Assembly: GCA_002796835.1 (NCBI GenBank)
Contig: LUGL01000026.1
Coordinates: 13,070 to 77,069 of the forward strand
DNA length: 64,000 nt
Reading direction: 5' to 3'
From: Elainella saxicola E1
Lineage (GTDB): Bacteria; Cyanobacteriota; Cyanobacteriia; Elainellales; Elainellaceae
Shown here: positions 24,280 to 27,596 of the stretch, one piece after another
Position numbering within the stretch: position 1 is the first letter of the stretch
How the letters are laid out: the number at the start of each line of letters is the position of its first letter
Notes under the pieces: generated by a model
The model's database searches: none
Told to the model about the DNA's origin: nothing
Seen by the model: the letters and a program-made list of their open reading frames with translations, nothing else
Made by a program: the position numbers and the translations under genes

Positions 24280-24315
24280 TTTTAGATTTTAGATTTTAGA
24301 TTTTAGATTTTGGAT
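24280..24315. repeat. Tandem heptamer repeat (TTTTAGA)n, cyanobacterial STRR-type
   Basis: Consecutive attttagattttagattttagattttagattttgga. Confidence 0.85.
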
Positions 24316-24685
24316 GGTGAATGAAGAAGAGTTTAAGCGACGGACAAAGGCTGTGGCGTTGCGGGTAATTCAGTTGGTGGAGACGCTGCCATGGAGTGGA
24401 TCTTCTGGAGTGATTGGGAAACAGTTATTGCGATCGGCTACTTCGGTTGGAGCAAACTATAGAGCCGTCTGCCGTGCGAAGTCAACTGCGGATATCATTG
24501 CCAAGCTAGGAATTGTGGAAGAAGAAGCAGATGAATGCCTCTATTGGATGGAATTGTTGGTCGAATCAGGTTTAGTTCCTGAAGTAAAGCTCAAAAGTTT
24601 GATGTCTGAAGTTAATGAAATTGTAGCAATGACTGTCACGTTGATTAGGACGCTACGCAGTAAATTGCGGAAAAATAACATGTGA
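24314..24685 (+). CDS. Four-helix-bundle protein (S23 / 23S rRNA intervening-sequence protein family)
   Basis: 123 aa; LLRSATSVGANYRAVCRAKSTADIIAKLGIVEEEADECLYWMELLVESG is the family core. Confidence 0.88.
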   Translation: MVNEEEFKRRTKAVALRVIQLVETLPWSGSSGVIGKQLLRSATSVGANYRAVCRAKSTADIIAKLGIVEEEADECLYWMELLVESGLVPEVKLKSLMSEVNEIVAMTVTLIRTLRSKLRKNNM

Positions 24686-24845
24686 AATTTTGGATTTTAG
24701 ATTTTGGATTTTAGCAGTTTCATAAGAACGATCGTGTTGTTCAACTCCAAAGCCAAAAAGTCCTATCAATCTGCCAATTCGAATCTGAAGTACAACAAAC
24801 ATTACCTGATCCAAAATCCAAAATCGCAAATTCAAAATCAAAAGT
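24684..24845. repeat. Heptamer-repeat pair in inverted orientation (ATTTTGGATTTTAGATTTTGGATTTT ... ATCCAAAATCCAAAATCGCAAATTCAAAATCAAAA)
   Basis: T-rich block at about 24684-24714 and A-rich reverse-complement-like block at about 24808-24843. Confidence 0.75.
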
Positions 24846-24939
24846 GCTAGGTAACGAATCGCTGAAAAGGAGGAAAACGATGAGAAAGTAGCGTTGTTAC
24901 AAACTTTAAAAAATGGTTAGGACTGAGATGTGCTATAGT

Positions 24940-27234
24940 TCACAAATCTTTGCGCGAGAAAAGAGGTATTTTATCATAATCGCGCTTCGCCCTCTCATTG
25001 CCCTCATCTACATACCATTCTAAATTTAAATCCAAACGCGGAAATTCTCCCGTGAGAGAGTTTTCGAGGGTAAAAGTGAGTTCGTCGTAGCTCACCCAGT
25101 TGCCCTCCTTGCGCCAACCGACGCGATCGCCAAACTTTTCCCAATCTGAATTGTAATTCATTGGGCTACCGCAGTCCTGCCAGATTTTCTTCTGAACACT
25201 AAAGCCCCATTTGCCCTTGCTATATTTCACCCAAAGTTGATCGAGCGTGCGCAAGTCTTCGCAGGGGAAGTTTTCAAAGTCTTTGCTGGAAAACCATCGC
25301 CCTTCTTCTTTGTCCACTGTGGTAATCATCAACCGATAGGTTTCCTGATCTGCTTCACGCCACTGCTGTGTTTTGAGGTATTCCTCTAGCTGAGCATAAC
25401 GGAGAGTTTCTACAGTGCCAGTCAACGCCTTGATTTTCTGTTCCAATCCTGGATCAAGTTTCTCTGGGTTGCGATACTCGCGCAAACAGTCATAGGCAAG
25501 TTGGGCTGCACTTGCACCGAGTTTACAGGCTTCTTTAATTGTATGAGCCATTAGTCGGGGTGGAAGTTGCGCTGTGTAGAGCAAGATGGTTTCCCGCCAC
25601 CAGGCTTTATCCCAGTTCTCCCGAACAAGACCGAGCGCAGTCGCATGATCTTGTTGAGCCAAATCGCTAGCAGCAAAATATCCCTGGAAGCTGAGGTGAG
25701 GAAACTCGTAGTATCCCAGTTCCCGCTCAACCAATAACTCGCTAATCTGCACAATGTATTTGAGAAATGCTTCTGCTTCAACGTCCTCCAGCTTTAATAC
25801 AGAATGTTTTCGCAGAAATCCAATTAAATCTGAGTGCGCAAGGTTGGGACGGTTTTGCTTCACCATTGTTAGAGCGAGCGACTGTAAGATCCGCTGACTT
25901 TTTTCGATCGGTAACAGAACAGGAATTCCCCTGGCTCTAGGGCGATCCTCCAGTTGCAGTTTACAAATTCCGCTGTAGAGTTCAATGCGGCGTTTGGGTA
26001 ACTCCGTTCCCGGATCAAAACGGTGAAAGGTTGCCAGCATGTTTAGCAAAAGTGGGTTTTCTGCCATTGCTCGCAGTTCAGGGCGATTTGTGTCTTGTAG
26101 CTGTGCTAGCAATTTTTGAGCATTGCGCTCGGCTGCTTCCTTCGCCTGCTGAGCGTACTTTTCACTGCGGACACCCTGTTCCTGACAGAGATACCACCGC
26201 CTGATAAACCGCTCCTGCTGATCTGAATTAAACTTTTGCACAAACAGCGGTGCAGTTGGGCGTTTCGCCACGTAATCCTTAAATCCGGCAGGGCGAGATG
26301 TAACGATAAAAGTTGTGCGATCGTATTCCTGCATTTGTTGGCTGATCCAGTGACTCACTTGCTGCCGCTGGCCTTCTGGGAGTTCATCAAAGCCATCAAA
26401 CATCACCAGCGCTTTTCCCTGCACCAGCAAGTTTTCAACCCAGGCAGGAGGAACCTTCAGCGGATTACTCGGCGATAGCTTGGGCAGAAAATGATTTTTA
26501 ATCAACTCAGGAAGGGTTGGTAACGGAGATTGCGAAAGTTCATCTCGCCAGTCGCGCAAGTGCAGCAAAAATGGAATCAGTTTGGGAGCCTGGTAGCGGT
26601 GATGTTTGCCCTGTCCATAGATTAAAGAAATGTGGCGTAATAAGGTTGTTTTTCCAAATCCACCCTGCGCCTGGATCACCATTTGTCGAAAGGTGGGGTT
26701 TTTGCGTGAACTGAGAATTAAATCCCAGATTGTCAGTCCATCAGGCGATTGGTGCCCGCTGAGTTGAAGAGGGACAAAGACTTTTTCTAGCATTGGAATG
26801 GCTGTTTTGTCAGGATTAAACCCTTCAGTTGTGTATTCTTGACAAGGTTTTGCCTGTAGTTTCAAATATTTGGCTTCAAAACCGGACAACTGCCAGTTAA
26901 TCGTCTCATTCAGGCTGGTCAGCCAATTGTTTAAGGCATCCGCATCCTGCTTGCCTTTTTCCGCATAGATTTCGGACAATCGATCGACAAAGTTCTGACT
27001 ATAAGCAGCCCAAACTGCCGTCACAACCGTCACCGGGAAAGTCAGCAACACCTGCGCCCACTCTTGTTTCAACAAAAAGCTGACAAACAGCCAGCTGCTG
27101 CCTCCTAACGGCATCCATTGAATCAAAGGTTGCACAATCTGCCGCTGCACAAACCGCCGCTCTGGACTGGGCGATCGCTTCTCTGGTTGATTTTCAGCTT
27201 TGGACGGCTGCTGAGGCTCTGGTTCTTCACTCAT
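24940..27234 (-). CDS. Membrane-anchored NACHT-type STAND NTPase with C-terminal GUN4 domain
   Basis: 764 aa; Walker A QAQGGFGKTTLL, Walker B ALVMFDGFDELPEG, TSRPAGF; N-terminal hydrophobic segment; C-terminus LRYAQLEEYLKTQQWREADQETYRLM...FPCEDLRTLDQLWVKYSKGKWGFSVQKKIW...WEKFGDRVGWR is a GUN4 domain. Confidence 0.92.
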   Translation of the reverse strand: MSEEPEPQQPSKAENQPEKRSPSPERRFVQRQIVQPLIQWMPLGGSSWLFVSFLLKQEWAQVLLTFPVTVVTAVWAAYSQNFVDRLSEIYAEKGKQDADALNNWLTSLNETINWQLSGFEAKYLKLQAKPCQEYTTEGFNPDKTAIPMLEKVFVPLQLSGHQSPDGLTIWDLILSSRKNPTFRQMVIQAQGGFGKTTLLRHISLIYGQGKHHRYQAPKLIPFLLHLRDWRDELSQSPLPTLPELIKNHFLPKLSPSNPLKVPPAWVENLLVQGKALVMFDGFDELPEGQRQQVSHWISQQMQEYDRTTFIVTSRPAGFKDYVAKRPTAPLFVQKFNSDQQERFIRRWYLCQEQGVRSEKYAQQAKEAAERNAQKLLAQLQDTNRPELRAMAENPLLLNMLATFHRFDPGTELPKRRIELYSGICKLQLEDRPRARGIPVLLPIEKSQRILQSLALTMVKQNRPNLAHSDLIGFLRKHSVLKLEDVEAEAFLKYIVQISELLVERELGYYEFPHLSFQGYFAASDLAQQDHATALGLVRENWDKAWWRETILLYTAQLPPRLMAHTIKEACKLGASAAQLAYDCLREYRNPEKLDPGLEQKIKALTGTVETLRYAQLEEYLKTQQWREADQETYRLMITTVDKEEGRWFSSKDFENFPCEDLRTLDQLWVKYSKGKWGFSVQKKIWQDCGSPMNYNSDWEKFGDRVGWRKEGNWVSYDELTFTLENSLTGEFPRLDLNLEWYVDEGNERAKRDYDKIPLFSRKDL

Positions 27235-27329: not shown

Positions 27330-27596
27330 TTACAAGGGGTATAGAACAGCTTCATTTAGATTGTGAGCGATCGAGTCATGGGAAACCGCTCCGATAAACT
27401 CTGTCAGCGGATCTTGAGCAATGTTCAATTCGATCGATTCAGAGTTTTCTCTATCTTGCTGAATGGAGACAGATTGCTGAGAATACAGCAAAAAATCGAC
27501 AAACTGCAAAACCTCCGATAGGCGATCGTCTGGGAGATCAGCAATCTTTTCCAACAGCAGTTGCTTCACGCTAGAACTAGAAGTCATATCAATCAA
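27330..27596 (-). CDS. DUF2281-like / antitoxin-like small protein
   Basis: 88 aa; VKQLLLEKIADLPDDRLSEVLQFVDFLLYSQ. Confidence 0.6.
   Translation of the reverse strand: MIDMTSSSSVKQLLLEKIADLPDDRLSEVLQFVDFLLYSQQSVSIQQDRENSESIELNIAQDPLTEFIGAVSHDSIAHNLNEAVLYPL

Follow-up and report, generated by a model that had tools for sequence, protein, structure and literature searches.

To our knowledge, bacteria have one known route to targeted protein hypervariation, the diversity-generating retroelements (DGRs), which use a reverse transcriptase (RT) and a template. In multicellular bacteria DGRs place a C-terminal hypervariable segment in cyanobacterial STAND, kinase, caspase and TIR proteins (PMC10907252, PMC7517822), and the GUN4-associated tails described here have the same position, but differ in that neither an RT nor a template repeat is linked to them, in that they vary in length, occur in all frames, are G/T-rich and random-like and are linked to an HUH transposase, and in that their scaffold is GUN4 rather than a C-type lectin. 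The antiphage STAND proteins of the bNACHT and Avs types (PMC12169576, PMC10907252) are built from an N-terminal effector, a central NACHT module and a variable C-terminal sensor, a layout that the protein analyzed here (P0001) appears to share, with a putative effector at its N-terminus; its modeled core also has the NLR-like fold, although its C-terminus is formed by a GUN4-derived domain with a hypervariable tail. GUN4 has been listed among the domains of cyanobacterial conflict systems by Kaur et al. (PMC7159879, PMC8195603), who proposed a tetrapyrrole-dependent control of GUN4 fusions, and the fusion of NACHT with GUN4 per se therefore belongs to a known kind. The RAYT or TnpA-REP class 2 Y1 transposases (PMC6006769) share with the transposase gene found at our loci the Y1_Tnp domain, the NHVH motif, the YIHANP motif with the catalytic Tyr and a convergent position beside a conserved DNA element; in contrast to them, the clade found here is tied to a coding hypervariable 3' end and apparently not to dispersed REP hairpins, and its 30-bp element is essentially confined to GUN4 ends and lacks a conserved hairpin. 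Finally, cyanobactin precursor genes (PMC6162287, PMC4663559) likewise have a hypervariable core that adjoins conserved DNA on the 3' side and a RAYT of this clade in convergent orientation, but encode a secreted peptide precursor in which the frame of the recognition sequence is conserved. In comparison with these systems, we consider it fairly probable that P0001 is an NLR-like conflict protein in which a degenerate GUN4 domain serves as scaffold for a tail diversified by an untemplated and probably RAYT-linked process.

The window, the whole stretch of 64,000 nucleotides of Elainella saxicola E1 that was analyzed, contains the gene of P0001 as an open reading frame with an ATG start (Table 1). 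The sequence-only reading of this DNA had recognized NACHT and GUN4 in one frame, and the profile search that it proposed found both domains, with E-values of 8.7e-17 for NACHT (PF05729; 61.9 bits versus a curated cut-off of 26.7) and 1.2e-36 for GUN4 (PF05419; 126 bits versus 29.2), each well beyond chance. The Walker A and Walker B motifs were located where that reading had placed them, and their core residues showed no variation in 17 homologues; P0001 carries the NACHT domain and both motifs of a STAND NTPase. Moreover, the domain order supports the proposed STAND switch with GUN4 in the C-terminal position of the sensor. In an AlphaFold model of P0001 (mean pLDDT 76) the best PDB matches of the core were NLRC4, NLRP3 and NOD2 (E ~1e-13 to 1e-11), so that the NACHT core is predicted to be NLR-like. 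Of the suggested membrane anchor, a weak N-terminal hydrophobic segment does exist, but with a best 19-residue Kyte-Doolittle mean of 1.56 (residues 59-77) it is borderline and is modeled with low confidence, which makes membrane anchoring plausible only. None of the specific NACHT defense models of PADLOC and NCBIfam matched P0001 above cut-off, and a PADLOC match to PD-T4-6 was rejected because it covered only model positions 298-423 of 450, corresponding to the GUN4 part. The PD-T4-6 model itself contains a GUN4-like region (matched by P0001 residues 599-732), and cyanobacterial kinase-GUN4 proteins and other GUN4 fusions may therefore be miscalled as PD-T4-6.

Table 1. Features of the NACHT-GUN4 locus, in positions of the window.
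Feature	Position	Strand	Basis
NACHT-GUN4 protein, 764 aa (P0001)	24940..27234	-	ORF and profile matches
N-terminal hydrophobic segment, residues 47-78, possible membrane effector or anchor	27001..27096	-	hydropathy, borderline
NACHT module, residues 183-347	26194..26688	-	profile match; model resembles NLRC4, NLRP3, NOD2
Walker A, QGGFGKTT	26644..26667	-	invariant alignment columns
Walker B, ALVMFDGFDE	26383..26415	-	invariant alignment columns
GUN4-derived domain, residues 610-734, C-terminal NQLRGVR helix absent	25033..25407	-	profile and fold
Left boundary, codons G-E-F-P (GGAGAATTTCCG), conserved	25039..25050	-	locus alignment
Hypervariable segment of 72 bp, tail from residue 733 on	24967..25038	-	disordered in models; no copy elsewhere in genome
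Right DNA element, CCTCT + TTTCTCGCGCAAAGATTTGTGAACTATAGC, spans the stop codon, here in frame b (LFSRKDL-stop)	24932..24966	-	locus alignment
118-bp conserved block, 83% identical to L206, RAYT absent	24844..24961	-	locus comparison

Proteins with a fused GUN4 domain continue into a tail without conserved sequence and then finish with SLAQRLVNCSTSQF, LLSHRDL or LFSRAETCKL. These three endings are the three frames of a single DNA element, in which TCTCTTCTCTCGCnnnnAGACTTGTGAAcTGTAGCA is kept as DNA while the frame varies. With up to three mismatches allowed, the 30-bp pattern of the element was found in 86 of the 390 genomes of the class (in 20 of 60 in a smaller pattern search), while the reversed control gave 0 hits. 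A GUN4 domain lies directly upstream of 74 of the 80 copies whose flanks were read, and the stop frames of these copies are distributed 26:24:23; among the remaining six, one lies at the end of a contig and two or more show GUN4-like ends. The element contains a stop codon for each of the three frames, so that any insert yields a finished protein. The frame b ending SLLSHPDL resembles the end of canonical GUN4, SLLSHPAW, which suggests that the 3' end of canonical GUN4 may be the ancestor of the element and that the site of the insert would be that of the former contact helix. In loci that carry a RAYT gene, the 118-bp block forms the spacer between the element and this convergent gene. No conserved hairpin or covariation was found in the block or the element, and an RNA element or terminator in the block is thus unsupported.

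The segment between the GUN4 domain and the element has a median length of 48 bp (about 20-100 bp) and consists of 43% G, 33% T, 15% A and 10% C, compared to 30% A, 27% G, 24% T and 19% C in the flank. Between genes of different species (the sample holds one genome per species) that are 82-92% identical upstream and whose elements are mostly 73-100% identical, the likeness of the segments does not rise above that of shuffled sequences, as in the pairs L201/L206 (88.8% identity upstream;.50 versus.47 shuffled) and L170/L173 (91.7%;.41 versus.39). Tail turnover may also be active in present-day populations. The copy in the window appears to be less typical, its G+T content of 0.58 being the sixth lowest of 94; together with the 118-bp spacer as the only remaining part of the RAYT-bearing arrangement, this makes it a probable resting or fossil member, and its tail may be an old, frozen copy.

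A RAYT gene convergent to the GUN4 gene is linked to these loci, lying 100-280 bp past the element and being present in intact form at 21 and as a remnant at 26 of 113 loci. The linked gene matches Y1_Tnp (PF01797, E 1.5e-18) and contains the NHVH and YIHANP motifs of the published RAYT scheme (PMC6006769); domain, HUH motif and catalytic Tyr are present in the relatives as well as in contig C63 of the window genome. The only intact RAYT of the clade in the window genome lies on this contig, beside a caspase-GUN4 gene, while a protein search beside the window gene itself revealed no significant RAYT remnant. When 80 genomes were compared, an intact RAYT of the clade was found in 22 of 55 element-positive but in 0 of 25 element-negative genomes. 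Besides GUN4, RAYT was also the sole interpretable recurrent cluster when the neighborhoods were clustered in search of a fixed partner gene; the remaining large clusters resemble antisense frames. Members of the clade away from the strict element pattern mostly adjoin GUN4 genes with a diverged element, and two of them adjoin cyanobactin precursors.

The association with cyanobactin precursors recurred in an independent GTDB scan, in which 43 of 80 RAYT loci adjoined GUN4 and 17 adjoined cyanobactin-type precursors. At the loci L272-L291 (e.g. L276, L281, L287 and L291) RAYTs of the clade are convergent to precursors of the FAGDDAE and CSYDGDDE types, and in the FAGDDAE type the RAYT and the stop are usually separated by a constant 39 bp. 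The cores of cyanobactin precursors are hypervariable (PMC4663559), and the presence of a 'transposase' next to the precursor gene, between E and F, had been reported earlier without interpretation (PMC6162287, PMC4663559). The presence of these RAYTs beside both GUN4 and cyanobactin precursor genes ties the clade to two unrelated gene types with a hypervariable 3' end. Several precursor copies with differing cores stand in series at L272-L291.

The RAYT could nevertheless be a selfish hitch-hiker that uses the 3' element as its home while another activity makes the tails. In agreement with this explanation, 33 of the 55 genomes with the element have near-perfect copies of it but no intact RAYT of the clade, which indicates that the RAYT is not required everywhere at all times, and remnants of it persist at the 26 loci mentioned above. 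However, a mere passenger would not be expected to occupy the same fixed place beside an unrelated hypervariable gene type, the cyanobactin precursors, or to be missing in intact form from all 25 element-negative genomes compared, and we regard the hitch-hiker explanation as unlikely, although it deserves real weight. The G+T content of segments with an adjacent RAYT showed an upward trend only (p 0.057). The RAYT may act in trans or transiently, or it may be a passenger after all.

Selection on the tails can be read from their stop codons. Before the element, in-frame stops occur in 1 of 95 segments, compared to 41 and 47 in the other two frames and an expectation of 46.4 (P 1e-36), which demonstrates that the segment is translated and selected as protein. 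At the same time, segments with high G/T content have no dinucleotide memory (MI p 0.34) and segments lack codon periodicity, in contrast to the flanking coding DNA, which has both; some dinucleotide structure is left when all segments, rather than the G/T-rich ones alone, are pooled. A donor or cassette copy of the segment was not found in the two genomes searched (the window genome and G012). The insert thus looks like the product of a largely or wholly untemplated synthesis that afterwards came under selection as protein. It might be argued that the tail is neutral junk, i.e. a 3' coding stretch freed from constraint by the loss of the GUN4 end and altered by slippage in a G/T-rich tract, as its low-complexity look, G runs of up to 12 and a few local duplications could indicate. 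Such an origin is improbable, since it accounts neither for the near absence of in-frame stops nor for a complete turnover between two boundaries that are conserved together with the downstream DNA, and since the G/T-rich segments are memoryless and not repeat-like.

The C-terminal end of the fused GUN4 domain departs from the canonical one. Canonical GUN4, which is present once per genome in nearly all of 40 genomes, spans profile positions 2-141 and terminates in GHLPLSNQLRGVRVIAALLxHPAW, whereas nearly all non-canonical copies in these genomes end at positions ~124 to 140, most of them near 125, and the match of P0001 ends at position 125 of 141. The domain had been called near-complete, which holds for the positions matched; the missing end, however, is the part that matters. 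Studies of mutants showed that porphyrin binding needs Arabidopsis R211, equivalent to Synechocystis R214, in the LRG motif (PMC8967248); the equivalence of the LRG Arg to Arabidopsis R211 was derived here by counting along alignments. An LRG after the G-x-L-P motif was found in 20 of 20 canonical GUN4s but only in 3 of 95 fused domains, which is the chance level. Nevertheless, a model of the isolated C-terminal domain of P0001 (pLDDT 80) gave significant structural matches to GUN4 structures only (PDB 1y6i, 4xkb and 1z3x; Foldseek E ~1e-6, TM 0.6-0.7), so that its fold is predicted to be that of GUN4, and the core motif DLxTIDxLW..S.GxFGFSVQ is common to the canonical (PF05419) and the fused domain. 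The fused domain differs by the hypervariable tail in place of the NQLRGVR helix, by the lack of a GUN4_N domain and by its union with signaling modules.

According to the sequence-only reading, P0001 would be a STAND switch in which GUN4 binds porphyrins or bilins, gates NACHT and reports damage to pigments or photosystems, an idea that is favored by the presence of both the sequence and the fold of GUN4 and by the regulation that Kaur et al. proposed for such fusions. Of the porphyrin-binding fold and cleft on which this sensor would depend, the fold is retained while the contact helix is absent, and the structure prediction suggested for the cleft likewise returned a GUN4 fold lacking the canonical C-terminal contact helix. 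A tetrapyrrole sensor is decidedly improbable given the loss of the helix with the porphyrin-binding Arg (PMC8967248), the early end of most fused copies relative to the complete canonical GUN4 of the same genomes, and a hypervariable domain end that is incompatible with a pocket for a fixed ligand, although the remainder of the cleft might still bind tetrapyrroles. These results correct the common reading of GUN4 fusions as tetrapyrrole sensors.

That the tail is the variable repeat (VR) of a DGR, which an error-prone RT would rewrite with the help of a template repeat (TR), is very improbable, since, in spite of its C-terminal position and conflict-protein association as in DGR targets, the mention of GUN4-like domains among cyanobacterial DGR proteins and a DGR-like RT in the window genome (L356, motif IGNLTSQFFAN, read from the sequence), four copies checked in this genome are unalignable and of unequal length (77, 53, 43 and 35 bp), segment lengths are random modulo 3, no TR, i.e. 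no second copy of segment or flanks, was found, and changes were not seen to be confined to A, the unequal lengths and the lack of a donor in particular being a poor fit to a DGR. No RT is linked to the window locus, and the RTs of the window genome lie on other contigs. Among these unlinked genes are the DGR-type RT L356 (G000:C248) and L357 (G000:C241), an FGE protein located close to a fragment of an RT. The four-helix-bundle fold of PF05635 is related to the DGR accessory Avd. An S23/IVP-type gene of this family (24314-24685, + strand) is convergent to the NACHT-GUN4 gene, occupies the place of the RAYT in relatives and adjoins AAATCCAAAATC-type repeats; a role as Avd-like accessory was considered and rejected, because an RT is not linked to it and genes of this type are frequent. 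The NACHT-GUN4 gene is immediately preceded by an orphan ORF of the VapB/DUF2281-like antitoxin type (27330-27596, - strand), for which no toxin partner was noticed.

In the RAYT-linked diversification that we favor, a signaling or killing module (NACHT/STAND here; TIR-NACHT, caspase, kinase or KAP NTPase elsewhere) would carry a degenerate C-terminal GUN4 scaffold on which the tail has replaced the porphyrin-contact helix of canonical GUN4. Rewriting would be targeted between the left boundary (codons G-E/H-F/L-P) and the 30-bp right element and would produce ~20-100 bp that are G/T-rich and effectively random in content and in length modulo 3, with the right element stopping all three frames and so finishing each protein. 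The Y1/HUH RAYT, which can be single-copy per genome and would then act in trans, would probably nick the DNA, with untemplated addition and rejoining to follow. The tail would form a recognition surface, a match would free NACHT from autoinhibition, the released protein would oligomerize in the manner of NLRs, and the N-terminal segment would then damage, or signal at, the membrane; antigen sensing and membrane action are proposed here from the architecture and from STAND proteins generally (PMC12169576, PMC10907252). A large set of conflict proteins across cyanobacterial families (NLR-like, caspase and kinase) has tails with targeted hypervariation of random length for which no template was found, suggesting a previously undescribed bacterial way to diversify immune receptors. 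If the RAYT is the agent, this would be a transposase-derived diversification of receptors in bacteria and would bear also on the core variability of cyanobactin precursors. More tentatively, as a possibility that we take seriously without calling it probable, the system could be a bacterial equivalent of the junctional diversity of V(D)J recombination, in which a domesticated single-strand (HUH/RAYT) transposase and untemplated G/T-biased nucleotide addition rewrite the tails of immune receptors built on the GUN4 scaffold and also, within a sister branch, those of cyanobactin precursors, while the three-frame stop element guarantees a finished protein. Judged against the open-access PMC literature without preprints, the untemplated, transposase-linked diversification of conflict-protein tails looks undescribed.

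The distribution of the fusion bears out the accessory character that had been ascribed to this region. Some match to P0001 was present in 60 of 60 related genomes, while the full NACHT-GUN4 fusion (~37-66% identity over most of its length) is patchy and can be present or absent within one genus. It is accompanied by other conflict-type fusions; the window genome has ten GUN4 domains, one canonical and nine others that include caspase, kinase and KAP-NTPase fusions, and the homologue L047 is a TIR-NACHT-GUN4 protein with the TIR domain at the end where P0001 has its hydrophobic segment. In the sister group L049-L056 the N-terminus and NACHT are as in P0001 but the C-terminus is FGE-sulfatase-like, an apparent exchange of sensor domains, GUN4 for FGE, on one chassis. 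The FGE-like class has been proposed as an antigen sensor (PMC10907252). Four relatives (L029, L044, L103 and L218) are interrupted by stops or frameshifts (two TGA in L029), as expected of accessory genes under turnover. At L124 (G057:C1:2038447-2046500) GUN4 fusion genes are clustered within ~8 kb, one ORF having tandem GUN4 domains, and between the GUN4 genes lie RAYT fragments and a single intact RAYT, an arrangement that resembles a small array.
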